From contig CANKYO010000003.1 of NCBI GenBank assembly GCA_947488175.1, positions 1 through 64,000 of the forward strand: a DNA stretch of 64,000 bases, written 5' to 3'. Shown one piece after another: positions 6,078 through 24,397 of this stretch. How positions within the stretch are numbered: position 1 is the stretch's first letter; each line of letters starts with the position of its first letter. The position numbers and the translations under genes were made by a program. The DNA is from an uncultured Paracoccaceae bacterium (GTDB lineage Bacteria > Pseudomonadota > Alphaproteobacteria > Rhodobacterales > Rhodobacteraceae). The notes below the pieces were generated by a model. The model was not told where the DNA came from and did not search any database. It saw nothing but the letters and a program-made list of their open reading frames with translations.

Positions 6078-6838
6078 GCGATAAGAACAACCCGTTTTTT
6101 GTGGGCTACCTGCCCGTGCCTGGACCGCTGCGCCGATTTTTGCTGCTGGCGTCCGTGTTGGTGGTGGCGACGTTCCTGCTTACGGGACTGCTGATTGGCA
6201 GCACGCAAGATGAACCGCCTGCGTCTGGTTTCCGGTTCGACTACGGTCGTCAGACGGTCACTGGGGTGATCGAGCTAACACCCTACCCCCTGCTTCGCGT
6301 GACTCAAGGCAATGATCTGATCAAACCGGGCAAGACGCTCATGCTTACCAGTGGGGGAAAAGCTGGGGTCGATATGCGGGCGATGGGGTTAGAGGGGCAA
6401 CTGGCGACCGTCTCGGGCATTATCCTGCAAAGGGGCACCATCGACATGATGCAGTTGCGCGGCGGCAGGCAAGGGCTGGCAGCCGCTGAAGGCGATCCGC
6501 CGGAAATGGTGACTGAACAGCTTGGCCGCTGGAAAGTCGCAGGCGAGATTTGTGATGGAAAATGCCTGAATGGGGCGATGCGCCCGGGCAGAGGACTGGC
6601 CCATAAGGCCTGCGCAAACCTGTGTTTGCTGGGTGATGTGCCCCCGGTATTTGTGTCGACCCAACCGATTGAAGGATCTGACTTCATGCTGATCACAGGG
6701 CCCGATGGCACCCGTTTGCCGGATGCCGCTTATAACTACATAGGGCAGTTTATCAGTTTGGAAGGTGATTTGGAACGCCGTGGCGATATCCTTGTATTGC
6801 GCATGGACACCACCACAATGGAACTGATCGACGGATGA
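6074..6838 (+). CDS. Membrane-anchored protein with Cys/His motif, unknown function
   Basis: 254 residues. One membrane helix lies at about 20-42 (LLLASVLVVATFLLTGLLIG); the remainder is hydrophilic with a beta-rich look and is probably periplasmic. A distinctive motif holds C160-x3-C164, then H177-x2-C180-x3-C184, followed by GDVPPVFV. This could bind a metal or haem or form redox disulphides, but it is not a CxxCH cytochrome motif. I recall the pattern from unassigned proteins near redox operons and cannot name a family. It starts by a four-base ATGA overlap with the Rieske-haem gene and overlaps the next gene the same way, so it is almost certainly part of the same complex or pathway. Confidence 0.78.
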   Translation: MSDKNNPFFVGYLPVPGPLRRFLLLASVLVVATFLLTGLLIGSTQDEPPASGFRFDYGRQTVTGVIELTPYPLLRVTQGNDLIKPGKTLMLTSGGKAGVDMRAMGLEGQLATVSGIILQRGTIDMMQLRGGRQGLAAAEGDPPEMVTEQLGRWKVAGEICDGKCLNGAMRPGRGLAHKACANLCLLGDVPPVFVSTQPIEGSDFMLITGPDGTRLPDAAYNYIGQFISLEGDLERRGDILVLRMDTTTMELIDG

Positions 6839-7125
6839 AACGGATTGCCCTTCTCGTACTGATCCTTCTGGTTGGCACAATCATGCTTTACCTGTCCCGC
6901 TTCTGGTTTCTCGACCTCTGGCCGCGCAGTGGGTTGTTCGGGTGGGAGGCGCTGCGCCCCGGCGGCGGCCTGCTTGGCCGCTGGCTACGCGGCACACCCT
7001 TTGCCCCGTTTGAGCTGTTGATCTGGGCGATCGGCGTTTTCCTGATTTTGACCTACTTGCAAAAGTTCATCGATTTTCTCCTTCCCGCCGACCCATCCGA
7101 AAAGGATAATTATCATGAGCAATGA
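6835..7125 (+). CDS. Small membrane protein of the Rieske-fusion operon
   Basis: 96 residues with two predicted helices (about 3-23 and 57-78) and a glycine- and arginine-rich loop between them (RPGGGLLGRWLRG). No family is recognised. It overlaps the gene before by four bases and the Rieske-ThDP gene after by eleven, which supports a real, translated gene despite its size. The role is inferred only from position: a membrane subunit of the neighbouring redox system. Confidence 0.75.
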   Translation: MKRIALLVLILLVGTIMLYLSRFWFLDLWPRSGLFGWEALRPGGGLLGRWLRGTPFAPFELLIWAIGVFLILTYLQKFIDFLLPADPSEKDNYHEQ

Positions 7126-9094
7126 AAACCTGGATTGGATATCGGTTGGTCGGATCGAAGACCTTCCCGAAGGCCGCGTGAAAACTGTCACCGCGCGTAC
7201 GACCTCCATTTGTCTGGTGCATTTTGATGGCCAATGGGCTGCAATGAACAACCATTGTCCGCACCAAAAAGGACCGCTTGGCGAAGGATCCATCGAGAAA
7301 GGGATCGACGACAAATGCTGGATCCGCTGTCCGTGGCATGGTTGGGACTTTGATCCGCTCACTGGTAAACCGCCCGGCGGGCACGAAGATTCTGGCCAAG
7401 AGTTGTATCCCATCGACATCCGCGAAGGCGAGATTTTCGTGGGGCTAGACCCCGAACCCCCACACGAACGAACCGTGACGGACGTGATGGTCGAGACAAT
7501 GACCAACTGGGGCGTGCAATCGGTGTTTGGCATGGTGGGCCACTCGAACCTTGGGTTGGCCGACGCGATCCGCCGCGCGGTCATTGACAAGAAGCTGAAA
7601 TACTACGGTATCCGGCATGAAGGTGTGGCGGCATTCGCGGCCTCTGCCTACGGCAAATTGACCGGACAGCCTGCGGCATGTTTGACCATCGCTGGCCCCG
7701 GGGCCACGAACCTGCTGACCGGCATGTGGGACGCCAAGGTTGACCGCGCGCCCGTGCTGGCCTTGACCGGTCAGGTTCAGACCCAAGTCTTTGGTCCCGG
7801 CGCGTTTCAGGACATCGATCTGAAATCGGCCTTTCAAGCCGTGTCCACCTTCTCGCAACCGGTCCTGAGCAGTTCCAATCATGCAGAGCTGATGTCGCTG
7901 GCATGCAAGAACGCCATTGTTGAACAAAACGTGGCGCATCTGATCTTTCCCGACGACGTACAGACCTTGCCATCCAACAAGCCAGCTGGCAACCCGACCG
8001 GTCGGATGGGCGGCACAAGGGTCACCCCTGCGCAGACCGATATTGATGCAGCCCTTGCCCTGCTGAATGGTGCAAAACGCCCCATGATTGTTGTCGGACA
8101 CGGTGCCTACGCAGCCCGCGATCAGATCGTGGCCATAGCGGAAAAAATCGGAGCACCTGTGGTGACGACCTTCAAGGCCAAAGGTTTGGTCCCGGACAGC
8201 CATCCGCTTGGGGCCGGGGTGCTTGGCCGCTCTGGCACACCCATTGCAAGCTGGTTCATGAATGAGGCCGACGTGCTGGTGGCCTTTGGTGCAAGCTTTT
8301 CAAATCACACTGGCATCGCGCTGAAAGAAAACATTATTCAGGTCGATTATGACCGGATGCAGCTGGGCAAGTTTCATCCCGTAAAAGTCCCCGTCTGGGG
8401 CGAGATCGGAGCGTTTTGTGATGCGGCACTGCACGCATTAAAGCCCAATGCAGATGCTGTGGATCAGCGCCCGGAGCTGGCCGATCGCTGGCAGATATGG
8501 CGCAACGAGAAGCGGCGGCGCTTGGCGGAGGAACATGGTAGCGGCATCCATTCTTTCGCCATCTTCGACGCGCTTGGGCAGCTTGCCCCGGACGACGCCA
8601 TCTTTGCCGTGGATGTGGGCAACAACACTTATTCCTTTGGACGCTATCTGGAAACCAAAGGGGATCAGCGCGTTTTGATGTCCGGTTATCTGGGGTCCAT
8701 CGGTTACGGTTTTCCGGCCGGGATTGGCGCATGGGCCGCCACGCAGGATATCGACGCGCTGCGCGGGCGCAAAGTCATTTCGATCTCTGGCGACGGGGGC
8801 TTCGGGCAATACCCGATGGATTTCACTACAGCTGTTAAATACGGAATGGATATCACTCACATCCTTTTGCACAACGGTGAGCTCGGCAAAATCTCGAAGG
8901 AGCAGCGATCGGGCGAATGGCCTGTATGGGAGACCGATCTGCACAATCCATCATTCGCGGCCTTCACCAAGCTGTGCGGTGGGCACGGACAGAAGGTGAC
9001 TAAGACCGAAGACATTGAAGGTGCAATTAGAAAGGCTCTTGGCGTCCGTGGTCCTGCATTGGTCGAGATCATGACTGATGCTGATCTCGTATAA
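7115..9094 (+). CDS. Rieske domain fused to thiamine-diphosphate-dependent (acetolactate-synthase-like) enzyme
   Basis: 659 residues. Residues 1-112 form a Rieske domain with C48-x-H50 and C72-x2-H75. From about 118 onward there are the three domains of the acetolactate synthase/pyruvate oxidase/benzoylformate decarboxylase superfamily: the pyrimidine-binding domain with the catalytic glutamate E169 (YGIRHEGVAAF) and AGPGATNLLTG; a central domain with KAKG and GRSG; and the pyrophosphate domain with G559-D560-G561 and N587, the GDG-(about 25)-N metal/ThDP motif. A ThDP enzyme would cleave or form a bond next to a carbonyl, and electrons from the enamine intermediate could pass to the attached [2Fe-2S] centre, as in pyruvate oxidases. 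The substrate is unknown. It is the last gene of the operon and overlaps its predecessor by eleven bases. Confidence 0.87.
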   Translation: MSNENLDWISVGRIEDLPEGRVKTVTARTTSICLVHFDGQWAAMNNHCPHQKGPLGEGSIEKGIDDKCWIRCPWHGWDFDPLTGKPPGGHEDSGQELYPIDIREGEIFVGLDPEPPHERTVTDVMVETMTNWGVQSVFGMVGHSNLGLADAIRRAVIDKKLKYYGIRHEGVAAFAASAYGKLTGQPAACLTIAGPGATNLLTGMWDAKVDRAPVLALTGQVQTQVFGPGAFQDIDLKSAFQAVSTFSQPVLSSSNHAELMSLACKNAIVEQNVAHLIFPDDVQTLPSNKPAGNPTGRMGGTRVTPAQTDIDAALALLNGAKRPMIVVGHGAYAARDQIVAIAEKIGAPVVTTFKAKGLVPDSHPLGAGVLGRSGTPIASWFMNEADVLVAFGASFSNHTGIALKENIIQVDYDRMQLGKFHPVKVPVWGEIGAFCDAALHALKPNADAVDQRPELADRWQIWRNEKRRRLAEEHGSGIHSFAIFDALGQLAPDDAIFAVDVGNNTYSFGRYLETKGDQRVLMSGYLGSIGYGFPAGIGAWAATQDIDALRGRKVISISGDGGFGQYPMDFTTAVKYGMDITHILLHNGELGKISKEQRSGEWPVWETDLHNPSFAAFTKLCGGHGQKVTKTEDIEGAIRKALGVRGPALVEIMTDADLV

Positions 9095-9337: not shown

Positions 9338-12300
9338 TCATTTGAAATGAAGTTTCAGGGTCACGATCTCATGAGCGCGCAAAGTCAGTGAGACCTCACG
9401 ACCGTCGAAATTCGCAAGCCCCACAAGTGTTTCATCGAATGACACTCGTTCCACCTTGGCAATTCTGCGCCCTACCGTAACCATCGTTTTCGTCGCAGTG
9501 CCGTAGGCTTCGTACAGGCGCAAGACGGCTCCGGTCCCGTCTTCGGCGGGCTTGATCGTTTCGATGATGACGTTGGACGGATTGGATACCGCGAACTGCA
9601 TGGCAGTGGCGGCACCGCGGGGTGAAAGGTAACGAACCGGGGTATTGAGCGCATAGGCTTCGTGATCCAACATATCTCGATCAGCGGCGGGTTTCGGAAG
9701 GAGACTATAGGTGAACAGATGCCTGCCTTGGTCGGCTTGTGGATCAGGAGAGGTCGATGACTTGATCAAGGTGATCCGAATCGTATCGTCCTTGACGTCG
9801 TAGCCATACTTGCAGTCGTTCAACACGGCGACCGAGTATTCATCGTCACAAAGCCGCGCCCATTTCTGTGCCGGGACCTCGAAGCGGGCCGCGTCGAACG
9901 ACGTCTCCCGCTTGGTCGAACGCCGGACGCTGCCCCACTGGATGTCGAATTCGGCGTGGGGAGCCGAAATGAACGTTGGGAAGGCGGCCTTCAGCAATGT
10001 ATGTTGCTCGTGCCAATCGACTTCGGTGAAGAAATCGACGCGGCGCGACTGGGCGGTCAGTCTGATGGTTTGCGTCAGCGTGCTGTTCCGCCATCCTGTC
10101 GTCACACGCAGCGCCGCGCGGAGCGGACCAGTCTCGACGATCTCGCAAGTGCTTTTCCCGCTGACGATCTCCATTCGGTCTTCGAACGACGGGTCGATGT
10201 CCCACGCGTCCCAGCAGATCGGACGATCCTCAAAGGCTTGCAGGACGTTGCCGGACTGGCCGCGTTTCAGAACGTTCTTTCCCAATTCCTTATCGAAGAC
10301 CTCTGTCAATGTACCGTCATTCCCGACGCTCACGCGAAGGTAAGCGTTTTCAAGGATAGCACCGTCCTCCAGAACCGAGATGCTGACCGGTGTCTCCGGC
10401 GTCGACGCATAGGCCACGGGTACGGTCGCATAGGCCGGAAGGTCCGCGAAGTAGAGAAGCTGGCCCGTTTCCGTAACTTGGCCTCCAACCTCGGCCTCAA
10501 CGGCAATCACGCGCGGACCTGATGTTGGGGCGGTATTGGCCACCATCGGCGTGGGACCTTCAAGGGCCGCCGCGGCCTCTATCGCCACGGCCTCGACGAT
10601 CTGTCTGATGCAAGCAAAATCCCTGCGCGAGTCCTCGAAAACGACCGGCACTGACGTTCCTGTCACAATGTCATGGAATTGTTGCAGGCAAAGGAGTTGC
10701 CATGCTTCGGTCAGGTCCGGCGCGAGGCCCGCCATCGCGGCGAGTGCCTCGGCCTCATGAAGCGCGCGTTCAGCCAGCCTATTAGCGCGCTTGATCCAGC
10801 CTTGTGACGTCAGCACACCACGATGGCCTTCCATATAATGCTCGCCCGTCCAGACCGCGAGACTTTCGGCGGTCTTCTCGATTGCGGCAAATGCCTCGCG
10901 CACCGTCGACATCCGCAGACGGGGCATGCCTGGCATCTCGGCGAAGGCATGTGCCTTGTAAAGCAGGTCGTCCGTAGGCCCGCCGCCACCATCCCCGTAT
11001 CCATAGCAGATCGGCAGATCGTTTATACTCTCCGGAACGGTTTCGTCAGTAACTGTGCCAAGCACCTCCCCCGCGCTCAGGTCGCTTTTGTAGTTCGTCG
11101 GGAACGGCAGGTATTGCACCTCGCGCGGTGTGGTCAGGATATGCGCCAGAACACGGCTGCCGTCCAGCGCCTCCCAAAGATGGGTGGACCATGGTACCTT
11201 GTTCTTCTGGTTCCAGTTCAGCTTGTTCGTGACGAAGTATTTCAGCCCCGCGTGCCGCATCAGCTGCGGGATTTGCGCGGGGAACCCGAAGGTATCGGGC
11301 AGCCAAAGCACCGGCGTCTCCACATCGCCAAACCGATCCTTGAAGTAGGCCCGCCCCAGCATAAGCTGCCGCACCAGCGATTCAGGCCCCGGAATGTTCA
11401 GGTCCGGCTCCACCCACATGCCACCCATGACCTCCCAACGACCTTCCGCGATCCGGGCCTTCATTCTGGTGAAGATGTCGGGATAGTCCTTTTCGACCAT
11501 TGCATAGAGTTGCGGCTGGGAATGAGAGAATTTGAAATCTGGATCCTGATCCATCAGGCGTAAGACATTCGAATAGGTTCGGGCGTTCTTCAGCCGGATC
11601 TGATCGACGGGCCACAGGTAGGCGATATCCATGTGCGCATGACCGATCCCGTGCAGAGTCTCGCCCCGGGCCTCACCCGCCTGCGGAACGCCTTCGTCCA
11701 GCACCCATTGTGCCTCCTCGACCGTTTCGCGCAGCCGATCCCCCAGCGGCGCGCGCGTGTCCAGAGCCTTGAACGCCTGATCCAGCGCGTGGATCAATCC
11801 CTCATGTTTGTTGTTGTCAGGGGCAAGCATCCGCGCGGCATCCAAAACGGCCGAGGCTTTGGCATGAAAGGCGCGCAACACGGGGTCAATCGCGACTAGC
11901 ATCGGCTCTCCCATGAAGAGTTTGCTTCTGCTGTCGGGATCGGGCGGCCAACCTGCAAGCCCTGTCCAACCATGCAATGAGACAACATGCGTCTGTCCGT
12001 CGGCCACTGCAGGATCAAGCGGTATCGTGTGATGATATCGGTCCGCCGACCCGATGGGCTTGGAATCCACGTGAAGCAGGGCCTCTGGGTGGTTGAAGAT
12101 ATCGCCCATCAAGCCAAGCGGCAGGTGCAACGCAAGGTCGTGCGATCCCCAATCCTCCGGCACCATAAAGCGCGACTTTATGACGAAATTGAGATCGGCG
12201 CTGCCCCAGTAGGACCGATGCGGGATCTCATCCCATCCCGACGGGTCGGCACAGATGGGCGCATCAACCATCGCGGCCGGAAGCGGCAAAATCCGAAACG

Positions 12301-12394
12301 GCGGCAGGACCAGCGTTCGGCGGAATATATGCGGTGCGATCAGCGCCAGCCGCGACGCGATCTTTTCAGCTGTAAAAGGCCAGCGCCCAGCCAT
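9338..12394 (-). CDS. Alpha-mannosidase, glycoside hydrolase family 38
   Basis: About 1018 residues, normal for bacterial GH38. The zinc and catalytic motifs are visible: H252-x-H254-x-D256 in GHAHMDIAYLWP, the GGMWVEPDLN stretch, nucleophile D367 in WLPDTFGFP, and HDIVTGTS further on, followed by the beta-rich C-terminal domains. It hydrolyses alpha-linked mannose from oligosaccharides. No signal peptide is present, so it should act on imported sugar in the cytoplasm. The start at 12394 is preferred over an upstream ATG at 12493 because it lies four bases after the stop of the ABC ATPase gene and gives the expected N terminus. It is the last gene of the importer operon. Confidence 0.92.
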   Translation of the reverse strand: MAGRWPFTAEKIASRLALIAPHIFRRTLVLPPFRILPLPAAMVDAPICADPSGWDEIPHRSYWGSADLNFVIKSRFMVPEDWGSHDLALHLPLGLMGDIFNHPEALLHVDSKPIGSADRYHHTIPLDPAVADGQTHVVSLHGWTGLAGWPPDPDSRSKLFMGEPMLVAIDPVLRAFHAKASAVLDAARMLAPDNNKHEGLIHALDQAFKALDTRAPLGDRLRETVEEAQWVLDEGVPQAGEARGETLHGIGHAHMDIAYLWPVDQIRLKNARTYSNVLRLMDQDPDFKFSHSQPQLYAMVEKDYPDIFTRMKARIAEGRWEVMGGMWVEPDLNIPGPESLVRQLMLGRAYFKDRFGDVETPVLWLPDTFGFPAQIPQLMRHAGLKYFVTNKLNWNQKNKVPWSTHLWEALDGSRVLAHILTTPREVQYLPFPTNYKSDLSAGEVLGTVTDETVPESINDLPICYGYGDGGGGPTDDLLYKAHAFAEMPGMPRLRMSTVREAFAAIEKTAESLAVWTGEHYMEGHRGVLTSQGWIKRANRLAERALHEAEALAAMAGLAPDLTEAWQLLCLQQFHDIVTGTSVPVVFEDSRRDFACIRQIVEAVAIEAAAALEGPTPMVANTAPTSGPRVIAVEAEVGGQVTETGQLLYFADLPAYATVPVAYASTPETPVSISVLEDGAILENAYLRVSVGNDGTLTEVFDKELGKNVLKRGQSGNVLQAFEDRPICWDAWDIDPSFEDRMEIVSGKSTCEIVETGPLRAALRVTTGWRNSTLTQTIRLTAQSRRVDFFTEVDWHEQHTLLKAAFPTFISAPHAEFDIQWGSVRRSTKRETSFDAARFEVPAQKWARLCDDEYSVAVLNDCKYGYDVKDDTIRITLIKSSTSPDPQADQGRHLFTYSLLPKPAADRDMLDHEAYALNTPVRYLSPRGAATAMQFAVSNPSNVIIETIKPAEDGTGAVLRLYEAYGTATKTMVTVGRRIAKVERVSFDETLVGLANFDGREVSLTLRAHEIVTLKLHFK

Positions 12395-12398
12395 CGGC

Positions 12399-14129
12399 TC
12401 AGGCCCGGACCAGATCGAAACCGGGAACCTCTCCGCGGAATTCACTACCGGCACGCTGGGCTTCTGCCTCAAGGTGGGACGGGTTCCAATCATCGCGCCC
12501 GTCGCCCCACGACCGTTCCAGATCGGGCCAAGGGATTGATGAGATCAGAAGGCGAGTGTAGGGATGCTGCGGCGCACCGATGACCTCTTTGGGCGGTCCT
12601 GCTTCAACCACCTGCCCCTTATAGAGCACCATGACGAAATCGCTGACATGATAAGCCGTCGCAAGGTCGTGCGTGATGTAGAGGATGGAAATGCCGTATT
12701 TGTCCTTTAGGTCGTAGATGTTGGACAGGATGGTTGCCCTCAGCGACGCATCCACCATCGACACGGGCTCATCCGCGATCAGCAGTTTGGGCGACAGCAT
12801 CAGTGCGCGCGCCACGATCAAACGCTGGCGTTGGCCGCCGGACAGCTGATGGGGATAGCGCGACAGCACCATATCGGGATCAAGCCCGACTGCTGCACAG
12901 GCCTCTTCCATCGCCTGCCGGGTATGGGCCTCTGATTTTGCCAGCCCGAAACGCCTGAACGGGAAACGCAGGGCGTGATCGACGCGGTAGAATGGATTGA
13001 AGCAGGCGTAAGGGTCCTGAAAGACAGCCTGCACGTTCTTCCGAAATTCGAGGGATTGTGTCGCCCCCATGCCGGCGATGTCCTGTCCTTCGTATAGAAC
13101 GCGGCCCTGACTGGGCGGGTTGAAGCCGAGCATAATGGAACCCATCGTCGACTTGCCTGATCCCGATTGCCCGACGATTGAGATGATCTGCGGAGTGTCG
13201 CCCTGAAGGGTGAAAGACAGCGGGTGCAGGGCGGTCACCGCGCCATAATCCTTTCGCACCCCGTCGAACCGCAAAAGCGGCTCACGGCTGTCTCTCTTTG
13301 GTGCCGCCGCCCGTGTATCGGGGTTGAGAAAGCTCTCTCCGCCCACCAGCGGCACCGACGAAATTAGGTCTTTTGTGTAAGGGTGTTTCGGCGCTTCAAG
13401 TATCTGTTTGACGGTGCCGTGTTCGACCAGTTCCCCATCCTTCAGCACCGCAAGCTCATCCACCGTCTGGGCCATTAGCCCCATGTCGTGACCGATCATC
13501 ATCAGGCCAGACCCAATCCTGCTCTGGATGTTCTTCAACGTCTGGATCACCTGCCGCTGTGTCACCACATCAAGCGCCGAGGTCGGCTCGTCGGCGATCA
13601 TCAGATCAGGGTTCAGAATGATGCCTATCGCGATACAGACCCGCTGCTTCATCCCGCCTGACAATTCGTGCGGGTAAAGCTTGCCCGCTCGCGCAGGCAG
13701 GCCAACGCTTTCCAGCGCCTCATCGGAGCGCCTTTGCAATTCTGCGCGATTGGTGTGGCCTTCGTGAGCGATGATCGCATCCCACATCTGCGGCTCCACA
13801 CGCATGATCGGGTTGAGCGAATTCATCGCGCCTTGCGGAATATAGGCCACGCGGCTCAGCCGGGTGCGGCGCATCTGCTCTTCGCCCAGCGAAAGGATGT
13901 CCGTGTCGCCCAGCTGGATCGTCCCGCCAGAAACGCGCCCTGGTTCTGCCAGCATCTGCATAACAGCCAGCGCGGTCGTTGTCTTGCCGGACCCGCTTTC
14001 GCCGATGAACCCAACGCGCCGCCCCTTGTGGATGCCGAGGCTCAACGATTTGACCGCCTGTACCACGCCCTTGGGCGTCGGAAATTCAATGGACAGGTCC
14101 TTTAGGGTCAGAACAGGTTTGTCCGTCAT
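12399..14129 (-). CDS. ABC transporter double ATPase, oligopeptide/oligosaccharide (DppD-DppF fused) type
   Basis: 576 residues with two complete ATPase halves in one chain. The first has Walker A GESGSGKT at 43-50 and signature LSGGMKQR; the second has Walker A GQSGSGKS near 318 and LSGGQRQR. Each is followed by an IADEP Walker B. This is the fused form of the DppD/DppF pair that drives family-5 binding-protein importers. It overlaps the DppC-like permease by four bases upstream and ends four bases before the mannosidase start. With the mannosidase next to it, the substrate may be a mannose-containing oligosaccharide rather than a peptide; this is inference from context. Confidence 0.93.
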   Translation of the reverse strand: MTDKPVLTLKDLSIEFPTPKGVVQAVKSLSLGIHKGRRVGFIGESGSGKTTTALAVMQMLAEPGRVSGGTIQLGDTDILSLGEEQMRRTRLSRVAYIPQGAMNSLNPIMRVEPQMWDAIIAHEGHTNRAELQRRSDEALESVGLPARAGKLYPHELSGGMKQRVCIAIGIILNPDLMIADEPTSALDVVTQRQVIQTLKNIQSRIGSGLMMIGHDMGLMAQTVDELAVLKDGELVEHGTVKQILEAPKHPYTKDLISSVPLVGGESFLNPDTRAAAPKRDSREPLLRFDGVRKDYGAVTALHPLSFTLQGDTPQIISIVGQSGSGKSTMGSIMLGFNPPSQGRVLYEGQDIAGMGATQSLEFRKNVQAVFQDPYACFNPFYRVDHALRFPFRRFGLAKSEAHTRQAMEEACAAVGLDPDMVLSRYPHQLSGGQRQRLIVARALMLSPKLLIADEPVSMVDASLRATILSNIYDLKDKYGISILYITHDLATAYHVSDFVMVLYKGQVVEAGPPKEVIGAPQHPYTRLLISSIPWPDLERSWGDGRDDWNPSHLEAEAQRAGSEFRGEVPGFDLVRA

Positions 14130-15058
14130 GACAGCTTCCTCAGACGCGGGTTCGACACCTCATCAAGCCCCAGATTGATCAGCAACAATCCGATGAACAT
14201 GACCCCCAAAAGCAACGTGGGAATGCCCCACCACCACCACAGGTTTTGGATCAGCGCACCGGCATTGATCGCCTCATAGATCGTGCGGCCCAATGTCGGG
14301 ATGCGCTGTGGACCAAGGCCCAACACCTCAAGGCCTACGGCGGTGACGATTGACGTGGTGACAGACGCGATGAACGACCCGAAGAGATAAGGCACGAGAT
14401 TGGGCAACATCTCGCGGAACATGATGTGGGTGGTCGATGCGCCCGACAGCTGCGCCATCTGCACGTAGCCCGATTGCTTCATCGACAGCACCTGCGCCCG
14501 GATCAGGCGCGTCGGCGATTGCCAGACAAACCCGGCGATCAGCAGGGCCATCATTGTCAACGTCACATCCCCGAAAGCGGACTGAAAGACGACCAGGATC
14601 AACAGCGGCGGAATGGTGATCATCACATCGGCCCCTACTCGGATCACGTCGTCGACCCGCCCCCCGATAAAGCCCGCCGAAAAGCCAAGGAATATCCCGA
14701 TCGACATCCCTATGAGGGACGCCAGAAGCCCCACGAACAAGGTGTTCGGCGCACCAACAATGATGAGCGCCAGCATATCGCGTCCAGCACCGTCTGTCCC
14801 CAATGGGTACTCCATGACTCCCGGCTGCCCGCGCAGGTTCTCAGCCCCGAGAGGCGGCAGTTTCAGGGGGGCGGACCCCGTAAAGACCAGATCGAGGTTC
14901 CAGACAAATCGCCCGATGATACCGATAGCAACAATCCCCAGCAGGATTGCCACACCCCAGGTCAGCTTGGGATTCATCCACGGATTGTCGAACCGTCGAA
15001 TACGGCGCGCCTGCCGCTTTTCGGCACGTGTCATCGGCATGTTGTCTTGCGAGGTCAT
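14126..15058 (-). CDS. ABC transporter permease, DppC-like
   Basis: 310 residues. A basic cytoplasmic N terminus (TRAEKRQARRIRRFD) precedes the first helix, and about six membrane segments follow. The EAA-like loop is at GASTTHIMFREMLPNLVPYL, typical of BPD-type permeases contacting the ATPase. The ATG at 15058 is chosen because it follows the previous stop by one base with AGGTGG upstream; longer readings into the DppB gene are unlikely. It is the inner-membrane channel subunit paired with the gene that follows in the list. Confidence 0.92.
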   Translation of the reverse strand: MTSQDNMPMTRAEKRQARRIRRFDNPWMNPKLTWGVAILLGIVAIGIIGRFVWNLDLVFTGSAPLKLPPLGAENLRGQPGVMEYPLGTDGAGRDMLALIIVGAPNTLFVGLLASLIGMSIGIFLGFSAGFIGGRVDDVIRVGADVMITIPPLLILVVFQSAFGDVTLTMMALLIAGFVWQSPTRLIRAQVLSMKQSGYVQMAQLSGASTTHIMFREMLPNLVPYLFGSFIASVTTSIVTAVGLEVLGLGPQRIPTLGRTIYEAINAGALIQNLWWWWGIPTLLLGVMFIGLLLINLGLDEVSNPRLRKLS

Positions 15059-15059
15059 A

Positions 15060-16070
15060 TCACGCCACCTCATGCCGGATACGAGGATCGATGAATGGGT
15101 AGAGTAGATCGACAAGGAAAACTGAAAGCGCGGTGATCAGGATAATGACGAAAGACACACCCTGGATCACCGGGAAATCCTGATTGAGGATCGCGTCATA
15201 CAAGAGCTTGCCCATACCGTTGTAGGCAAAGATGCGCTCCACCAGCACTTGCCCCGCGATCAACAGCCCGATCTTGAGCGCGAAGGCCGTGATCTGCGGC
15301 AAGATCGCGTTGCGGATCATGTAGCGATAAAGGATATAGCGCGGGAGTAGCCCCTTGGCCTCGGCCAGTTTGACATAGTCTTCGCCCTGCACACCGATCA
15401 TCAACCCCCGCATGCCTAGGGCCCAGAACCCAAACGTCACCACGACAATCGAGAGGGCAGGGAGGAAGCCGTGGTGTAGTACGGATTTGACGAACTCCCA
15501 CGTCCACCCCGGTTCGACGAAAATCGAATAGGCCCCGGTCAGCGGGAACCACTGTAGCTTGGCCGCGAAGATCCACATCAACAGCAGCCCCGACAAAATG
15601 GGCGGGATCGACGTAAAGACCATCGCCGCCGGGATCGCCACCTTCACCAGCTTTGGTGAGCGGTCCCACACCATCAATGCCCCCAAAAGGTTGCCGATGA
15701 AAAAGGTGATAAGCAGTGATAGGATCATCAGCCCAAGCGTCCACGGCAGAGCATTCAGGATCAAAGTCGAAACAGGCGTCGGAAAGGCCGCCGTGGACAG
15801 GCCAAAATCGAAGGTCAGCGCCCCAGTGATGAACTTGAAATACTGAACGATCAGCGGCTGATCGATGCCCATATTGGCCCGCAACTGGGCAAGGATTTCT
15901 TCGGAATTCGCGACCGACCCGGCGCCCGCGGCCATGCGACCCAGCGCGATCTCGGCCGGATCGACCGGCGAAAGACGCGGAATTATCCAGATGATCGTCG
16001 CTGCGATCAGAATGGTCAGCACAAGCGTCACCAACCGGTTGATCAGATAGTCGCGCGGGATGCGTCCCAT
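15060..16070 (-). CDS. ABC transporter permease, DppB-like
   Basis: 336 residues, six membrane helices, with the first periplasmic loop long as in DppB/OppB proteins and a permease loop at KGLLPRYILYRYMIRNAILPQIT. The ATG at 16070 has AAGGA eight bases upstream, so an in-frame start at 16130 is rejected. It forms the channel together with the DppC-like protein. It is separated from the binding-protein gene by about 160 bases that contain a strong hairpin, which probably lowers its expression relative to the binding protein. Confidence 0.92.
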   Translation of the reverse strand: MGRIPRDYLINRLVTLVLTILIAATIIWIIPRLSPVDPAEIALGRMAAGAGSVANSEEILAQLRANMGIDQPLIVQYFKFITGALTFDFGLSTAAFPTPVSTLILNALPWTLGLMILSLLITFFIGNLLGALMVWDRSPKLVKVAIPAAMVFTSIPPILSGLLLMWIFAAKLQWFPLTGAYSIFVEPGWTWEFVKSVLHHGFLPALSIVVVTFGFWALGMRGLMIGVQGEDYVKLAEAKGLLPRYILYRYMIRNAILPQITAFALKIGLLIAGQVLVERIFAYNGMGKLLYDAILNQDFPVIQGVSFVIILITALSVFLVDLLYPFIDPRIRHEVA

Positions 16071-16188
16071 GGTCAGTTCCTTCTTGCCAAAGGCGATGAA
16101 GGGAGGGCGCTGATTGTGCGCGGACGGCAATCGCGCACGGCGCGTGCCCCCTCTCCATACCGCCCTTTCAATACTTGAACAGTCAAGA

Positions 16189-16218
16189 GGGCTGGCGCAG
16201 CAGGTGCCACGCCAGCCC
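16189..16218 (-). terminator. Intercistronic hairpin between binding-protein and permease genes
   Basis: Nine-base perfect arms (GGGCTGGCG / CGCCAGCCC) with a twelve-base loop lie 12 bases after the binding-protein stop. No strong T-run follows on the minus strand. Such hairpins after importer binding-protein genes commonly stabilise the upstream message or cause partial termination, giving more binding protein than permease. Confidence 0.6.
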
Positions 16219-16229
16219 CCTTCGGGAGG

Positions 16230-17957
16230 TTAGTTTCCAGCTGGCTCCAGATTGTGGATGATCTGGTGGGTATGGTTCCACCAGAAGAACGGGTGGTTGT
16301 AGTAGTTTTCGGCCGTGGGCCAGCCTGTCCAATAGGTTTCGTTCATCGGCAGCAGTTTCGCCGCTTGAACCAGCGGAATGAACGGTGTGCCGGCGTCCAG
16401 ATGGCCATAGGCTTCGGCCACCAGCGCAGGCACCTCTGGATCGCCCAGTGCCCGCGTCGCGATTTCATCGACTACGGCCGAATAGGCCTCTGCACGGTCG
16501 CCATCCCAACGGGCGGTGTTGTTAAAACCCGGGCTGCGTTCGCCGACCGGCACCAAGTCCTTGACTGTATAACGGCCCATGGACGCCCAAGGTTCATTCA
16601 CCGATCCGCACGACAACCAGCTATAGGACATCTCGTAGGTACCGAACGGCAGAACCTCGCCCCAGAACACGCCGTTTTCGACCGGCACCGCCCTGGCATC
16701 GATGCCTGCGCGCTGAAGCTGTTCTACCACCACGTCAATCGTGCGCGTATATTCGGTGGAGGCGGAATTAACGTGAATATCTACAGAAAGCGTTTCGCCG
16801 TCCTTGGTGTAGTAATCACCGTCACGGGTCCAGCCCGTTGCTTCGATCAGGGTTTGTCCAGCGGCCACATCAGCGGACGCTGGCAGACCATAGCCCGCCT
16901 CGACCACAGCATCGATGAAAGGCGCCATGGAGCCGTAGTTCGCAAACATCGTCTCAGAGGCGGTTGTCGTGCCTTCGTAGGCCACATTCACGATCTGGTT
17001 GCGGTCGATGATATGAGCGACCGCCTTGCGCATGTTGGCATCATCCCATGGCGCGACCGTGGTATTGATTTCCAACTGACGCGCACAGGGGTCTGCGGCG
17101 GAATAGGGATAATCGGCATACCACGCGATGACATTGGGGTTCTGTGCGGCGATCGCCTCGAACGTGCCGATGGAGACGTTCTGTGCGGCATCCAACTGGT
17201 TCGATGCCATCAGCTGCGCGCGGCTTTCTTCGCCCCCGCTTTCAAGGAAGATCACACGCTGGGGCGCGGGCAGGCCTAGGAACCCAGTCTTTGCTCCCCA
17301 CCAGTCGTCGTTGCGATCCCAGATCGCGCGGTTCGATGCGGCAGAGGTAAATGTATATGGCCCGGTCCCGATGGGCGGATTGAACGCGAAGGTGGCCGCG
17401 TCTTCACCGTTCCAGATGTGTTCCGGCATGATCAGGAACGACCCGAAGATCCGCACACCGAAGTTTTCGACGATAAAGCGGGGGTTTGGATTTTGCAGTG
17501 TGAAACGCACGGTCAGGTCATCGACCTTCTCGACGCTTGCAACCTGTGCCCGGATCGTCGCGGCCTCACGGCTGGAAATTTCCTCGTTGGTCATCGCCAG
17601 ATTGACGGTAAAGATCACATCATCGGCGTTGAACGCCTCCCCATCGGACCATTCGACGCCTTCGCGCAAAGCGATCGTGAATTCCGTGCTGTCGTCGTTC
17701 TGGTCAAAACCGGTGGCTAACCACGGATCAAGATCGCCGGTGCCGTAGTTCAGAATGAAAAGCGGCTCCCACATAGTCTGGTGCGCGCCATGCATCCGCT
17801 TGGTGCCGGGGGTCATCCAGTTGAAGTTTTCGGGATCCTGGATCGTACGATCGAGGTCGAAGATAACCGTATTTTCGCGCGATACATCCTGCGCCCATGA
17901 GACCGACGCAACCACCGCAAGCGCCGAAGACGCCAAGAGTTTCCTGGTGAATTTCAT
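16230..17957 (-). CDS. ABC transporter substrate-binding protein, family 5
   Basis: 575 residues with a Sec signal peptide (MKFTRKLLASSALAVVASVSWA, cleavage before QDVSR). The mature protein has the family 5 pattern: the early TMWEPLFILN region, EFTIALREGVEWSDGEAFNADDVIFT and GTGPYTF, as in peptide-, nickel- and oligosaccharide-binding proteins. The N-terminal PENFNWMTPGTKR variant is one I associate with sugar-binding members, which would agree with the adjacent mannosidase, but sequence alone does not settle peptide versus sugar. It begins 45 bases after the metallo-hydrolase stop. Confidence 0.92.
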   Translation of the reverse strand: MKFTRKLLASSALAVVASVSWAQDVSRENTVIFDLDRTIQDPENFNWMTPGTKRMHGAHQTMWEPLFILNYGTGDLDPWLATGFDQNDDSTEFTIALREGVEWSDGEAFNADDVIFTVNLAMTNEEISSREAATIRAQVASVEKVDDLTVRFTLQNPNPRFIVENFGVRIFGSFLIMPEHIWNGEDAATFAFNPPIGTGPYTFTSAASNRAIWDRNDDWWGAKTGFLGLPAPQRVIFLESGGEESRAQLMASNQLDAAQNVSIGTFEAIAAQNPNVIAWYADYPYSAADPCARQLEINTTVAPWDDANMRKAVAHIIDRNQIVNVAYEGTTTASETMFANYGSMAPFIDAVVEAGYGLPASADVAAGQTLIEATGWTRDGDYYTKDGETLSVDIHVNSASTEYTRTIDVVVEQLQRAGIDARAVPVENGVFWGEVLPFGTYEMSYSWLSCGSVNEPWASMGRYTVKDLVPVGERSPGFNNTARWDGDRAEAYSAVVDEIATRALGDPEVPALVAEAYGHLDAGTPFIPLVQAAKLLPMNETYWTGWPTAENYYNHPFFWWNHTHQIIHNLEPAGN

Positions 17958-18002
17958 TTTGTACCTCCCAATTGTGGGCTTTCCGCCCGTTCGGCGCCCG
18001 CG

Positions 18003-18683
18003 TTAGCGGACGTAGTCCATGACCAGAACGCGCGTGCGGTCCGGCAAATCCTCCTTCTTCAGCTCGTGGATCGCGCCAAAGGCGAAATCCACGTCTTCAT
18101 CTTTGAAATGACTTAGAAAACTTTCGATCCACATGGTATTACGCGGTCGATAGGTCAGCGTGCGGAAATGCATCGGTATGACCAACTTGGGCCGAGTCCG
18201 ATGGATCATTTCCATTAGGTCAGGCAGCTCCAGCGTCAGGTATCCGCCCGCCAGTGCAAACAGAACGTCGGTGTCTTCGAAAAATGACTGCTGTGCGTCG
18301 GTCAACGGATTGCCGACATCCCCCATATGGGCGCATCTCATCCCGTCGAGTGTGAACCGATACATGCCGTTTTGCCCCGGGACTTCGTGTTCGGGGTGGT
18401 GGTCCCATTCTGCCGCCTCGATCGCGGTGATCTCGATCCCGCAGGCGGTCGTGCGGCCCCCGTCCTGCGCCACGGCCAATGCGTTGACGACCTCCGGTTC
18501 GCCTCGGATCAGATCGGCCCGGCAATGAGCATCGTCGTCATCGGAAGAAATCAGAACCAAATCTGCACTATCCTTGATGGGGGCATATCCCACACCTTCG
18601 GGCGTGTAAGGATCGGTAATGATCCGCGGCCCCGTTTCGGAATCAAGCCCAAAGGCTGCATGCCCATACCAGGTGATTTTCAT
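18003..18683 (-). CDS. Metallo-beta-lactamase-fold (UlaG-like) protein with altered metal motif
   Basis: 226 residues. MKITWYGHAAFGLDSETGPRIITDPY is the start seen in UlaG/MBL-fold hydrolases, and later elements such as MGDVGNPLT and KLVIPMHFRTLTY fit the fold. The central metal motif, normally T/S-H-x-H-x-D-H, reads ISSDDDDAHC here, so the first two histidines are missing. Either it binds metal differently or it has lost hydrolase activity. In UlaG the activity is a sugar-lactone hydrolysis. The gene abuts the dioxygenase gene with no gap and precedes the importer genes, so it belongs to the same operon. Confidence 0.78.
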   Translation of the reverse strand: MKITWYGHAAFGLDSETGPRIITDPYTPEGVGYAPIKDSADLVLISSDDDDAHCRADLIRGEPEVVNALAVAQDGGRTTACGIEITAIEAAEWDHHPEHEVPGQNGMYRFTLDGMRCAHMGDVGNPLTDAQQSFFEDTDVLFALAGGYLTLELPDLMEMIHRTRPKLVIPMHFRTLTYRPRNTMWIESFLSHFKDEDVDFAFGAIHELKKEDLPDRTRVLVMDYVR

Positions 18684-19511
18684 TCAGTTATTCCCGACGA
18701 CATGCGGCGACGCCGTCTTAGTAATATCATCATTTTCAGGGCGCGGATGAGTGCGCCAGCTTCCAGCCTCGCCGCGGCACAGAATCGCCTCCACCCCGCG
18801 GGCCCACGCCTCATCGGTGATCTGGACCTCCGGCGGGCAATACCGGAGTGTCAGGCCGCAGCGGCGGCGATCGCTGGCATTGGCCATGGATCCGTGAACC
18901 AGCATGTCCGCATGCATCGACATCTGGCCGGCCCTCAGACTGTTGGTGAAGGGCGGGCCCAACGCGCCAGCATCCGCCGTGCCCTTGTGAAACACGTACC
19001 CGCTGCCTTCTGTCTTGGCCACGGGCAAAGCGCCCTTGTTGTGCGTGCCGGGGATGAACCGCATGGCGGAATTGCCCTCGTCCGCATCATCAATGGCAAG
19101 CCATACAGTCACCGTCCGCGCTGGGCTCAATGCCCAAAACGACGCATCCTGATGCCAAGGAACGGCCCGCAGATCGCGCGGGGCCTTCGACAGAACAGCC
19201 GTAGCCCAGCACAGGATATTCGGACCAATCAGATCCTCGACATGATCCAGAATGCGCGGGTCAGTCGCGATGTCCCAAAGGCGTGACAATCGGGCCTGAT
19301 AGCAATTCACACCATAGGCACCATCGGGGCCAAGGTCAGCCATGTAGCGGTCAACGACCCAACGAATGTTGGCGATCTCGCGATCTGTGAAGGCATCAAG
19401 CGGCTGCACGAACCCCTGTTCATTGTACTGTGCGATCTGCGCCGTGGTCAGCCGCTTTGGGCGAACGTTGCGCACAGGTGCAAAGCTCAGATCAAGATCC
19501 GCATCCAACAT
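18684..19511 (-). CDS. Phytanoyl-CoA dioxygenase (PhyH) family protein
   Basis: 275 residues. It carries the iron-binding facial triad of Fe(II)/2-oxoglutarate dioxygenases: H120-x-D122 in PWHQDASFW and distal H206 in LVHGSMAN, with arginines at 215-217 suited to bind 2-oxoglutarate, and the VTVWLAIDDADEGNSAM strand typical of PhyH proteins. Likely reaction: hydroxylation of a small molecule coupled to 2-oxoglutarate decarboxylation; the substrate is unknown. It is the first gene of the importer/mannosidase operon, divergent from the AraC regulator. Its stop is directly followed by the start of the MBL-fold gene. Confidence 0.9.
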   Translation of the reverse strand: MLDADLDLSFAPVRNVRPKRLTTAQIAQYNEQGFVQPLDAFTDREIANIRWVVDRYMADLGPDGAYGVNCYQARLSRLWDIATDPRILDHVEDLIGPNILCWATAVLSKAPRDLRAVPWHQDASFWALSPARTVTVWLAIDDADEGNSAMRFIPGTHNKGALPVAKTEGSGYVFHKGTADAGALGPPFTNSLRAGQMSMHADMLVHGSMANASDRRRCGLTLRYCPPEVQITDEAWARGVEAILCRGEAGSWRTHPRPENDDITKTASPHVVGNN

Positions 19512-19589
19512 CTGAAAAGGTCCTCCGTGCTCACTAGCATGCGCAATGCGGACGTAAGGTCAGTGGCGCAATTTGACTATTTATTGTAC

Positions 19590-19605
19590 TATGTTGATTA
19601 ACATA
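19590..19605. promoter_or_regulatory. Inverted repeat in AraC/dioxygenase divergent promoter region
   Basis: TATGTT-GATT-AACATA has perfect six-base arms and lies in the AT-rich 131-base gap between the divergent AraC gene and the importer operon. The location is right for a shared operator. AraC proteins often prefer direct repeats, so the factor is uncertain. Confidence 0.35.
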
Positions 19606-19642
19606 TCCGAATAATCTCCATTTTATTGACGAATATTGCTGC

Positions 19643-20503
19643 ATGTACAAAACAACCTTCCTGATCGAAAACTATATAACCGCGGCGGAAAGCTTCCATT
19701 TCGCCCGTAAGCAACTGGCGAAACGATTTCCGGACACCTCCCACGACCATGACTATTTCGAGGTCTTCCTGATCGAGACCGGCCGAACCCAGCACTGGAT
19801 AAACGGCACAAACCAGACCCTAGAAGCCGGACAACTCGTCTTCATCCGGCCGGGCGACGTTCATGCCTTTCGCGCAGATCGCAAACTCGGCTGTCAGATC
19901 ATCAATGTGATGTTCCGGACAGAAACCGCGAGGCATCTGGCGACGCGCTACGCCGATACGATCGCCGGTCGGTTCTTCGATGGAAGGGACCCGCTGCCCG
20001 ATCTGCATACGCTCGGGCCCACCCGCTTCGCGAGGGCCGTGGCCGTGGCAGAGCAACTGCAGACAGCGGACCGCTCACTGGCACGAATAGAGGAATTTCT
20101 TTTGGTGCTGGTCAACCGGGTGGCCCACGCATCCAGCGGTGTAACGGGCACCACGCCCCGTTGGTTCGCCAAGGCTTGCAGTGCGGCCCTCTCGCCGGAT
20201 CTGTTCCGCAAAGGCGGGGCAGGACTTGTTGCCGCCGCGGGCCGATCTCACGAACACGTCTGCCGGACCTGCAAAGGCATCACCGGCTATACGCCGTCGG
20301 AATACGTCAATCGCATCCGGATCGAGCACGCAGCCCACCTGTTGCGCAGCTCCGAACTGGCCGTCGACGACGTCATCGAAAGTTGCGGCTTCGAAAACGT
20401 AAGTTACTTCTACCGCCTCTTTCGAAAACAAATGGGCGCAACCCCAAAGGCGTACCGCCTCACAAATCAGCAAGACCCGTTCGAGCAAGGGCCCCTTAAT
20501 TGA
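19643..20503 (+). CDS. AraC-family transcriptional regulator
   Basis: 286 residues. The N-terminal part has a cupin sensor domain (HDHDYFEVFLIETGRTQHWING, then GDVHAF), and the C-terminal hundred residues contain the two AraC helix-turn-helices: ITGYTPSEYVNRIRIEHAAHLL and VDDVIESCGFENVSYFYRLFRKQMGATPKAYR. It is divergently placed upstream of the dioxygenase/importer/mannosidase operon and is its most likely regulator, probably sensing the imported sugar or a product. Similarity to an IS5-type transposase begins within a few bases of its stop codon, so the last residues may be altered by the insertion; the DNA-binding domain is complete. Confidence 0.92.
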   Translation: MYKTTFLIENYITAAESFHFARKQLAKRFPDTSHDHDYFEVFLIETGRTQHWINGTNQTLEAGQLVFIRPGDVHAFRADRKLGCQIINVMFRTETARHLATRYADTIAGRFFDGRDPLPDLHTLGPTRFARAVAVAEQLQTADRSLARIEEFLLVLVNRVAHASSGVTGTTPRWFAKACSAALSPDLFRKGGAGLVAAAGRSHEHVCRTCKGITGYTPSEYVNRIRIEHAAHLLRSSELAVDDVIESCGFENVSYFYRLFRKQMGATPKAYRLTNQQDPFEQGPLN

Positions 20504-20507
20504 CCGC

Positions 20508-21028
20508 TTTGCGCGGGGTAGCTTCTCAGACTTGCCTCTGGCCGCCCAGCACGGCGAAGAGAAGACCGTGATAATCGACGGAGTTATCTGAAGCCTACAG
20601 AACTGCGACCAGCATGGGCGTCAAAAAGTGGGATGAGCCATTGGAACGCCATTGGTCCGAGAGACAATGGCGAATGCCGACCACTCGACTTGTTTGTCAC
20701 CGCCGGGCAGGTCAGCGACTACATCGGGACGAGGGCGCTTCTGAGTAGCCTGCCAAATGTCGACTGGCTGCTTGGGGATCGAGGGTTTGACGTCAACTGG
20801 TTCAGAGAAGCGTTGAAAGACAAAGTGATACGCGCCTGCACCCCAGGTCGTAAGTTGCGCAAGGTAGCCGTGAAATACGACAAGCGCCGTCACAAACGCC
20901 GCAATCGGGTTGAGATCAGGTTTGGCAGAGTCAAAGACTGGCGACTGGTTGCGACACGATACGACTGGTGCCCAAAGGTCTTCCTCTCCGCCATCGCACT
21001 CGCCGCAACCGTCATCTATTGGCTATGA
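20508..21028 (+). pseudogene. IS5-family transposase remnant
   Basis: The C-terminal half of an IS5-type DDE transposase can be followed through at least three frames. FARGSFSDLPLAAQHGEEKTVIID starts at 20508; the TATCTGAAG words follow in a second frame; then YRTATSMGVKK in a third; and a longer open stretch from about 20672 to 21028 has GQVSDYIGTRALLSSLP, DRGFD and the terminal KYDKRRHKRRNRVEIRFGR region. The N-terminal half is missing and no inverted repeats were identified, so this is a dead fragment. One deleted base after the AAG codon accounts for one of the shifts. Confidence 0.82.
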
Positions 21029-21932: not shown

Positions 21933-22934
21933 CTATTCATAGACGCAGCCGTGGATCAGGTTCTCGCGCATCAGGCGTTGCTCGAGTGACCCGCGCGGAA
22001 CAGAGATGTCTTTCAGGTATTCAACCTTTTGGCTTTGGAAGGCTCGGACCACTTCAATGGCCTGTGGGCTTGAGATGGACGCAAATCGCACGGCCTCGCC
22101 CGCGCGGAATTGGACCAACCTATCGGTATCACAGGAGATGACAGTGGCAATCTTCGGATAGCCACCCGTCGTCTGATGATCCGCAAGGAGCACCGTAGGA
22201 ACACCATCCCCCGACACTTGAACCGATCCGCGCACGATGGGTTCAGACGGGATAGAGAGGGCAGCGTCAAGGTCCAGTGGTGGACCGCTCAACCGCATAC
22301 CCATCCGGTCATAGGCCCCTGTAACCTTGAATGTCTCCGAGACAAAACGCGCGAAAGAATCGTCGGCGAAATGCTGATCCTGTGGCCCGGAGACAACGCG
22401 CATGGCCCCGTCGGGCATAAAGCCGGGCCGTGGCATGTCTCCCAGTCGATCATCGCAGATGGCGGCATCCAAAACCTTGATCGTCTGCCCTGCCTGCAAG
22501 ACCCCACCACCAAACCCAGAGGTTGAATGCGTCGCATGACTGCCCAGCCATTCCGATGCGTCCAACCTGCCGGAAAAGGCCAGATAGGCCCAGCTTCCGG
22601 TCGTTCCGGCGCTGATCGACAACTGTTCGCCCGTGCGGATGGTCAGGACCGTCCAGGATGCGGTTTTCTGTCCGCCGTGTTTGACGACAAAATCCCCGCC
22701 GGTGATTGCAACCGTGGCGGCACCGGTCGTGCAATGCAGGATCAAACCGCCAAGCGAGATTTCGATTGCTGTCAAACCTGCCGCATTGCCAAGGGCCGCG
22801 TGGGCGGCGTCAAAGGCCAGACGGTCCATCGGACCAGACGTTGCCACGCCGTAGCGCATGTTGCCGGGCCGGCCTGCGTCCTGAAATGTGACAAGGGGGC
22901 CAGCAAATGAAACGTTGAAGTCAGCCTCACCCAT
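21933..22934 (-). CDS. pxpC: 5-oxoprolinase subunit C (KipA/AHS2 family)
   Basis: 333 residues. The start FNVSFAGPLVTFQDAGRPGNMRYGVATSGPMDRLAF is the hallmark of the biotin-dependent-carboxyltransferase-like AHS2 domain (KipA/PxpC). With PxpA and PxpB it forms the ATP-dependent bacterial 5-oxoprolinase that opens pyroglutamate to glutamate. The ATG at 22934 overlaps the pxpB stop by eight bases; the in-frame start at 23033 would reach far into pxpB and is rejected. It is the last gene of the transporter/oxoprolinase operon. Confidence 0.92.
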   Translation of the reverse strand: MGEADFNVSFAGPLVTFQDAGRPGNMRYGVATSGPMDRLAFDAAHAALGNAAGLTAIEISLGGLILHCTTGAATVAITGGDFVVKHGGQKTASWTVLTIRTGEQLSISAGTTGSWAYLAFSGRLDASEWLGSHATHSTSGFGGGVLQAGQTIKVLDAAICDDRLGDMPRPGFMPDGAMRVVSGPQDQHFADDSFARFVSETFKVTGAYDRMGMRLSGPPLDLDAALSIPSEPIVRGSVQVSGDGVPTVLLADHQTTGGYPKIATVISCDTDRLVQFRAGEAVRFASISSPQAIEVVRAFQSQKVEYLKDISVPRGSLEQRLMRENLIHGCVYE

Positions 22935-23622
22935 GATTGCCGCCTTTACAAAGACGTTCGAATGCCGCGGTGTCGATTCGTTCGAACGCGAGGCAATCTC
23001 CGACGTCGAACAGAAAGGGGTGTTCAGGGTCACCGGTGAACACAGATGTGGGGGAGCGGCCGATGATCGACCAGCCGGTCGGCATGGTAAGTGTCGTGAT
23101 CAGGCATTGCGCCCCCGCGATGATGACGCTACCTGCAGGCACATCGCGCACGGGCTTTGATTTGCGCGGCACCTGTATCTGCTCCCGCACTCCTGACAGA
23201 TAAGCATAGCCGGGCGCGAACCCGTACATCAGAACCTGAAAGTTGCTGGCGAGATGGGCGTTGATCACCGCCTCGGTCGTCAGGCCGGTTGCTGACGCGA
23301 CAGCGTCCAAATCGGGCGCAAAGGGAGCCTCATAGCAGACTTGCACGCTGCGTTGAACGCCTGCCACCTTGGTAACTTCCAACCTATCGAGGCAGTCACG
23401 GACGTGTCCTTCTACGGTGACATGGTCCGTTTGTGTTGGATCGAAAGAAACCAGAAGGTTTACCAAGGCAGGCACTGTCTCGATCACGCCGGGCGGCGTG
23501 TCAGCACAGATTGCCTTGTCCAATGCGACGACATAGGCGTGTGCGGTCTCAGAAATCTCCTGCGCGAAACTGACCAGCAAGGCGTGGTCGGCGATGGCTG
23601 TAAACGCGGCGCCCATTGGCAT
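22927..23622 (-). CDS. pxpB: 5-oxoprolinase subunit B (KipI/AHS1 family)
   Basis: 231 residues with the AHS1 domain: YGFAPGYAYLSGV, then PRKSKPVRDVPAGSVIIAG and TGWSIIGRSP, which are the conserved KipI/PxpB blocks. It partners PxpC in 5-oxoproline cleavage. The start is at 23622, one base after the pxpA stop; an ATG two codons downstream is an alternative. Spacing and overlap show translational coupling with both pxpA and pxpC. Confidence 0.92.
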   Translation of the reverse strand: MPMGAAFTAIADHALLVSFAQEISETAHAYVVALDKAICADTPPGVIETVPALVNLLVSFDPTQTDHVTVEGHVRDCLDRLEVTKVAGVQRSVQVCYEAPFAPDLDAVASATGLTTEAVINAHLASNFQVLMYGFAPGYAYLSGVREQIQVPRKSKPVRDVPAGSVIIAGAQCLITTLTMPTGWSIIGRSPTSVFTGDPEHPFLFDVGDCLAFERIDTAAFERLCKGGNHG

Positions 23623-23623
23623 C

Positions 23624-24385: not shown

Positions 24386-24397
24386 TTGATTTGACAC

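Follow-up and report, generated by a model that had tools for sequence, protein, structure and literature searches.

A conserved operon joins a PhyH-type oxygenase, a family-5 ABC importer and a GH38 α-mannosidase and may serve the use of substituted α-mannosides

We describe an operon in a window of 64,000 nucleotides (positions 1 to 64,000 of contig CANKYO010000003.1, assembly GCA_947488175.1, from an uncultured, marine Paracoccaceae bacterium), this window being the whole stretch of DNA that was analyzed. On its minus strand, positions 9338-19511 hold seven genes in the order PhyH-family Fe(II)/2-oxoglutarate (Fe/2OG) oxygenase, metallo-β-lactamase (MBL)-fold protein, family-5 substrate-binding protein (SBP), permease, permease, fused ATPase, and α-mannosidase of glycoside hydrolase family 38 (GH38). 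An earlier, sequence-only reading had named these genes, and all of them lie at the place and in the order it gave. An AraC-family gene is divergent at every complete locus and is therefore part of the locus but outside the transcript. Our leading proposal, which we put slightly below an even chance, is that this AraC-controlled operon serves the uptake and cytoplasmic breakdown of small α-mannosides that are blocked by a substituent, for which an O-methyl ether is the likeliest candidate. Capture of the mannoside in the periplasm would fall to the SBP and its import to the two permeases with the fused ATPase. PhyH may then oxidize the substituent (a methyl ether would pass through a hemiacetal to a free hydroxyl and formaldehyde), after which the cytoplasmic GH38 would release mannose; the order of these steps and any effector of the AraC protein are likewise conjectural. 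Some relatives have a second oxygenase, which is a further PhyH-family enzyme (PhyH2) or a cytochrome P450 (P450) and could extend the removal to another position.

The gene order recurs elsewhere. When 84,980 named genomes were scanned, 80 loci with related GH38s were returned, and the complete eight-gene arrangement, regulator included, is present in 18 named contigs, with carriers that include Nereida, Cognatishimia, Litoreibacter, Tateyamaria, Boseongicola, Roseibium, Jannaschia and Oceaniglobus. In an order-level sample of 293 genomes, orthologues were separated at ≥60% identity for PhyH (next class ≤36%) and ≥52% for GH38 (next matches 34-47%, partial or in other contexts). PhyH orthologues occur in 24/293 genomes and GH38 orthologues in the identical 24, a co-occurrence count that is inflated by shared descent and joint transfer. 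The full gene order is kept in 23 of the 24 PhyH-bearing genomes. In the remaining one (G115) the operon is split, with PhyH and its own AraC gene on one contig and AraC/MBL-SBP-permease-permease-ATPase-ATPase-GH38 on another; because of this split, we find that the parts are retained together even when unlinked. Relatives within the order do not place the mannosidase in different operons: every orthologue of this GH38 clade found there sits with this transporter. The seven genes are a genuine conserved unit, their order far beyond chance.

Searches of plasmids did not find the whole operon, a class-wide search for the MBL protein in 385 genomes matched only the window genome, and the literature searched held no paper on the operon. 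All eight genes have nearly saturated synonymous sites (median pS 0.57-0.71). Across operon copies the median identity is 81-82% for the permeases, 54% for GH38 and 48% for AraC; permease 1 is the most conserved gene of the operon, and GH38 and AraC evolve fastest. The near-saturation rules out recent transfer as the cause of permease identities of 94-97%, which consequently reflect strong constraint. Two Chloroflexota loci carry a homologous importer and a GH38 without PhyH or MBL. The importer-mannosidase pair is therefore a wider module, to which PhyH and MBL were seemingly added later and mainly within Rhodobacteraceae. We also note a decayed remnant of the operon (L156, genome G248, C10 9180-9765), in which nothing is left but the C-terminal part of GH38 and 27 codons from the start of the ATPase. 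In one genus (L021/L138, L136, L139, L142), a second, convergent family-5 transporter operon, about 37% related, lies downstream of GH38.

Upstream of the first operon gene, in the stretch that separates it from AraC, lies a direct repeat, TCAA-N17-TCAA, with half-sites two helical turns apart, in 34/35 loci, compared with 0.17% of shuffled regions. A weight matrix finds a single site in the 64-kb window (19573-19597). As the matrix was trained on operon sites, this match is not independent, in contrast to the two matches in G115, which are: one lies before PhyH (L143; its second half is weak) and one before MBL (L153), so that both operon halves carry a site. The predicted operator common to the two halves indicates co-regulation of the split operon. 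At one Oceaniglobus locus (L026, 1764-2609), a xylose-isomerase-like TIM-barrel gene, possibly for sugar processing, lies between AraC and PhyH.

The core PhyH keeps WHQDA and HADMLxHGS in 35/35 operon copies, and H119, D121 and H205 are invariant in a 19-row alignment, giving the iron ligands HxD...H. A halogenase of the SyrB2 type was considered and rejected, since such enzymes need Asp replaced by Ala or Gly and Asp121 is invariant. Because the ligands are kept in every copy, PhyH is predicted to be of the hydroxylase/dealkylase type. AlphaFold models were too poor to use (mean pLDDT 44 for PhyH and 36 for the P450). The relatives of PhyH in the Protein Data Bank (PDB) are enzymes of natural-product pathways (6zyk, SyrB2, SnoK), which, together with a patchy distribution in 24/293 genomes, would suit an operon for the inactivation or scavenging of a mannosylated natural product, such as an antibiotic, siderophore or glycopeptide, instead of a food sugar. 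However, the operon holds no exporter, resistance or biosynthesis gene, and the closest GH38 operons, those of Chloroflexota, consist of transporter and GH38 only, under a sugar-sensing regulator. We consider this explanation quite improbable.

The GH38 protein has all four GH38 domains, its best PDB match is 6lz1 (Ams1), and the metal motif GHxHxD (GHAHMD), the nucleophile D367 of WLPDTFG and the QFHD motif are kept in 35 operon copies. It has no signal peptide and is the only GH38 domain in the genome. It is thus predicted to be a cytoplasmic exo-α-mannosidase of the Ams1/MAN2C1 type, in agreement with the cytoplasmic α-mannosidase of the sequence-only reading. A second match (39 residues) does not represent a second operon in the genome: it is an isolated 81-bp repeat of a GH38 stretch (window ~9980-10060) at C6:66466-66547 (L093), with 95% DNA identity and no other operon sequence around it.

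The mannosidase also bears on a different substrate, an unmethylated α-mannoside with a special aglycone (mannosylglycerate/digeneaside, another mannosylated solute or a lipid head group), from which GH38 would free mannose while PhyH and MBL process the aglycone. A sugar-type SBP and a GH38 suit any small mannoside, PhyH enzymes oxidize many aglycones, and the operon does keep two non-glycosidase enzymes. Against this, GH38 scores 78.2 bits in the mannosylglycerate hydrolase model NF007331, far under the cut-off of 1138, which rejects that identity, and the operon has no glycerate gene; the mannosylated-solute idea of the sequence-only reading is disfavored in its mannosylglycerate form on the same two grounds. 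An aglycone also leaves unexplained the P450 described below, which is of a carbohydrate O-demethylase type. We regard this explanation as unlikely, though still one to reckon with.

The importer has the parts of a family-5 (Opp/Dpp/Nik-type) ABC system, namely an SBP_bac_5 protein, two BPD permeases and ATPase domains with the oligo_HPY tail. The closest PDB relatives of the SBP are the mannoside-binding proteins 4pfu/5hm4 (function as stated in the PDB deposition), 1vr5/4pft, and the chitin-oligosaccharide-binding 1zty; the SBP has 15 aromatic positions in common with 4pfu. In OppA and DppA, the peptide N-terminus is held by an Asp in WCADYNEP and WTGDNGDP, respectively. In an alignment with both E. 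coli proteins this Asp is missing from the operon SBPs, which read WLSCGSVNEP at that place, and CGS(V/I)NEP occupies the position in all operon SBPs checked and in the Chloroflexota relatives. Because the nearest solved SBPs bind sugars and the anchoring Asp is missing, we predict an importer of the sugar type that binds mannosides, "peptide-type" denoting its ancestry only. The pairing of a family-5 importer with a sugar, which had struck the sequence-only reading as a surprise, is none, given that solved family-5 binders of mannosides and chitin oligosaccharides are the nearest relatives of this SBP. Two more distant relatives on annotated plasmids lie within sugar-catabolic operons. The generic family-5 annotation and the NikA, Opp and Gsi profile models, which match the transporter, would agree with an ordinary peptide, nickel or opine importer to which GH38 and PhyH are accidental neighbors. 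The identical PhyH and GH38 genome sets, the co-regulation of the split operon and the features of the SBP strongly disfavor this view, and we find it barely credible.

The MBL-fold protein is closest in the PDB to 1vjn/TM0207. HxHxDH is present in 0/35 copies and SSDDDxAHCR in 34/35, and on these motif grounds an ordinary zinc hydrolase is ruled out. The MBL position of the operon is taken by one or the other of two types, which are about 58% identical and both keep SSDDDxAHCR; the type was exchanged at least 5 times on the operon tree (L089, L092, L124, L126, L130, L132, L026). Since the PhyH gene directly adjoins that for MBL, PhyH could be imagined to oxidize the freed hexose to a lactone or keto form that MBL opens (its wider family includes the UlaG lactonase), so that the oxygenase would belong to sugar-acid catabolism. 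Gluconolactonase, enolase and SDR genes beside one transporter relative are in keeping with this idea. The loss of the first zinc motif in every copy speaks against it, as does an operon with neither a dehydratase nor an aldolase gene; moreover, it would be unusual for an Fe/2OG enzyme to turn a free aldose into a lactone. We judge this route improbable.

The clue to the nature of the substituent comes from an accessory slot between SBP and permease 1, which is empty in the window and holds PhyH2 in nine loci and a P450 in two (genomes G134 and G019). Across 25 operon genomes, the P450 and PhyH2 never occur together and are found in the slot only. A tree built on five operon proteins, concatenated, places L136 (with PhyH2) and L138 (with the P450) as sisters on very short branches. 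The best PDB match of the P450 is 6g5o/6g5q (E 7e-92; next 5e-40), and we take 6g5o to be the Zobellia 6-O-methyl-galactose demethylase P450. The structure of a P450 that demethylates 6-O-methyl-galactose has been described (PMC10033563). On two marine plasmids, ferredoxin and reductase genes come after a P450 relative with 40% identity; the agarolytic pSD15 additionally has genes for an alcohol dehydrogenase, a hydrolase and a β-agarase nearby. A neighborhood of the pSD15 type is the one given for 6-O-methyl-galactose demethylation in PMC10033563. Because the P450 and PhyH2 share the same place and the same partner genes and swap between close relatives, the comparison suggests that both would do the same job, the removal of an ether methyl group. 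That PhyH itself may be a carbohydrate O-demethylase follows solely from this swap.

The slot also bears on a substituent other than an ether. Aminoethylphosphonate occurs on Euglena oligomannosides (PMC12507850), and PhyH2 weakly matches a methylphosphonate hydroxylase (46 bits; cut-off 500), so PhyH might attack this or another group of algal oligomannosides. With no phosphonate gene in the operon and a slot P450 that points to an ether, we hold this to be very improbable.

Algal and microbial glycans commonly contain O-methylated sugars. The mannose of microalgal oligomannosides can be 3-O-, 6-O- or 3,6-di-O-methylated, and the methyl groups of the Chlorella oligomannosides confer resistance to jack bean α-mannosidase (PMC6344472; review PMC12507850). 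An importer, an oxygenase and a cytosolic α-mannosidase would fit such methyl-shielded oligomannosides, and other substituted mannosides would fit equally. GH92 and GH76 are absent from the 25 operon genomes, and therefore the substrate is probably a preformed small mannoside supplied by other organisms or enzymes. In its more specific form, our proposal is that the operon PhyH enzymes are Fe/2OG sugar O-demethylases, interchangeable with the algal-sugar P450, that unshield algal oligomannosides before GH38 digestion; we regard this form as possible but doubtful. A modified mannose-containing compound, as the sequence-only reading had it, is the most economical account of the operon, with the substrate itself deduced, and the algal glycoconjugates it named as one source gain some support from the slot.

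Several observations weigh against the demethylation proposal. The window genome (G000) has neither the slot-subfamily P450 nor PhyH2, and since this second oxygenase is absent, the core PhyH, with only about 22% identity to PhyH2, may carry out a different reaction. What points to demethylation is found in relatives and has been extended from them to the core PhyH. Moreover, 40% identity to a galactose-ether demethylase fixes neither sugar nor position, the assignment of entry 6g5o to that enzyme is presumptive, and no ferredoxin reductase is seen beside the P450 at the operon loci. The MBL protein, although present in every operon, stands outside the proposed mechanism, and the operon proteins, from which the substrate class is deduced, are read from sequence.

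The routes for methyl removal in the literature searched comprise the P450 system only. The replacement of a P450 by a PhyH enzyme at one gene position offers concrete candidates for a second sugar-demethylation chemistry. What is new here is a variant of a sugar-utilization operon that makes a testable prediction, a PhyH-type sugar O-demethylase. It would explain, in a testable manner, how bacteria pass the methyl "caps" that stop ordinary mannosidases and, if true, represents a new bacterial way to eat sugars protected against ordinary digestion.

Table 1. Genes and predicted elements of the operon locus (window coordinates)
Feature	Position	Strand	Details
PhyH-family Fe(II)/2-oxoglutarate oxygenase, operon gene 1	18684..19511	-	275 aa; PF05721 82 bits
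MBL-fold protein, first metal motif altered	18003..18683	-	226 aa; PF13483 143 bits
Family-5 SBP, N-terminal signal peptide	16230..17957	-	PF00496 203 bits
RNA hairpin, 17-bp, directly 3' of SBP stop codon	16185..16222	-	folding of 16075-16232, z = -4.3
ABC permease 1 (OppB/NikB-like)	15060..16070	-	PF00528 108 bits
ABC permease 2 (OppC-like)	14126..15058	-	PF00528 87 bits
Fused two-domain ABC ATPase (OppD-OppF-like)	12399..14129	-	PF00005 x2 + PF08352 x2 (oligo_HPY tails)
GH38 α-mannosidase, Ams1/MAN2C1 type	9338..12394	-	PF01074, PF09261, PF07748, PF17677
Predicted operator TCAA-N17-TCAA, PhyH/AraC intergenic	19573..19597	-	motif + weight matrix
AraC-family regulator, divergent, N-terminal cupin sensor	19643..20503	+	PF12833, PF02311

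Neighboring genes in the operon overlap or are closely spaced (Table 1). The largest gap, between SBP and permease 1, contains the hairpin, a possible partial terminator or mRNA stabilizer. The GH38 start is most likely at 12394, 4 bp past the ATPase stop, in place of the longest-frame start at 12493. Right after the AraC gene lies a DDE transposase fragment (20633-21028, plus strand), and further on (21933-24397, minus strand) biotin-dependent carboxyltransferase halves and LamB/YcsF form a 5-oxoprolinase (PxpABC) set unrelated to the operon. On the other side (3032-9094, plus strand), three genes in succession each join a Rieske [2Fe-2S] domain to a different partner: a glutamate-synthase FMN domain (3032-4651), a ferric-reductase membrane domain (5025-6077) and a complete TPP enzyme (7115-9094), with one extra gene without a Pfam match between the last two.

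Several known systems share parts of this operon. Cytosolic GH38s of the Ams1/MAN2C1 type (6lz1, 7ufr; Ams1 is a yeast enzyme) have the same domain layout and catalytic motifs and likewise no signal peptide; MAN2C1-type enzymes trim free oligomannosides in the cytosol, while the window GH38, unlike them, belongs to a bacterial import operon. Mannosylglycerate hydrolases of the E. coli MngB type have the GH38 catalytic domain in common and differ by the score given above. In the Chloroflexota operons (L025, L027), ordered SBP5-permease-permease-ATPase-ATPase-GH38, an importer with about 50-64% identity directly precedes a GH38 with 44-45%; in contrast to the window operon, they have a GntR/periplasmic-binding-type regulator and neither PhyH nor MBL. 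The family-5 mannoside SBPs 4pfu/4pfw/5hm4 (related 4pft/1vr5) of Thermotoga maritima match the window SBP over nearly its full length (E 2.5e-38) and share aromatic residues with it, although they are distant, about one quarter identical; we know of no PhyH or MBL partner for them. Finally, the P450 that demethylates 6-O-methyl-D-galactose in porphyran degraders (Reisky 2018 and Robb 2018, cited by PMC10033563) would, if 6g5o is that enzyme, be the nearest solved homologue of the slot P450. The window operon departs from that route, as described there, in having an Fe/2OG PhyH as core oxygenase, mannose as the predicted sugar, an ABC importer and a genome without the P450; what the two would have in common is the oxidative removal of a group from an algal sugar.

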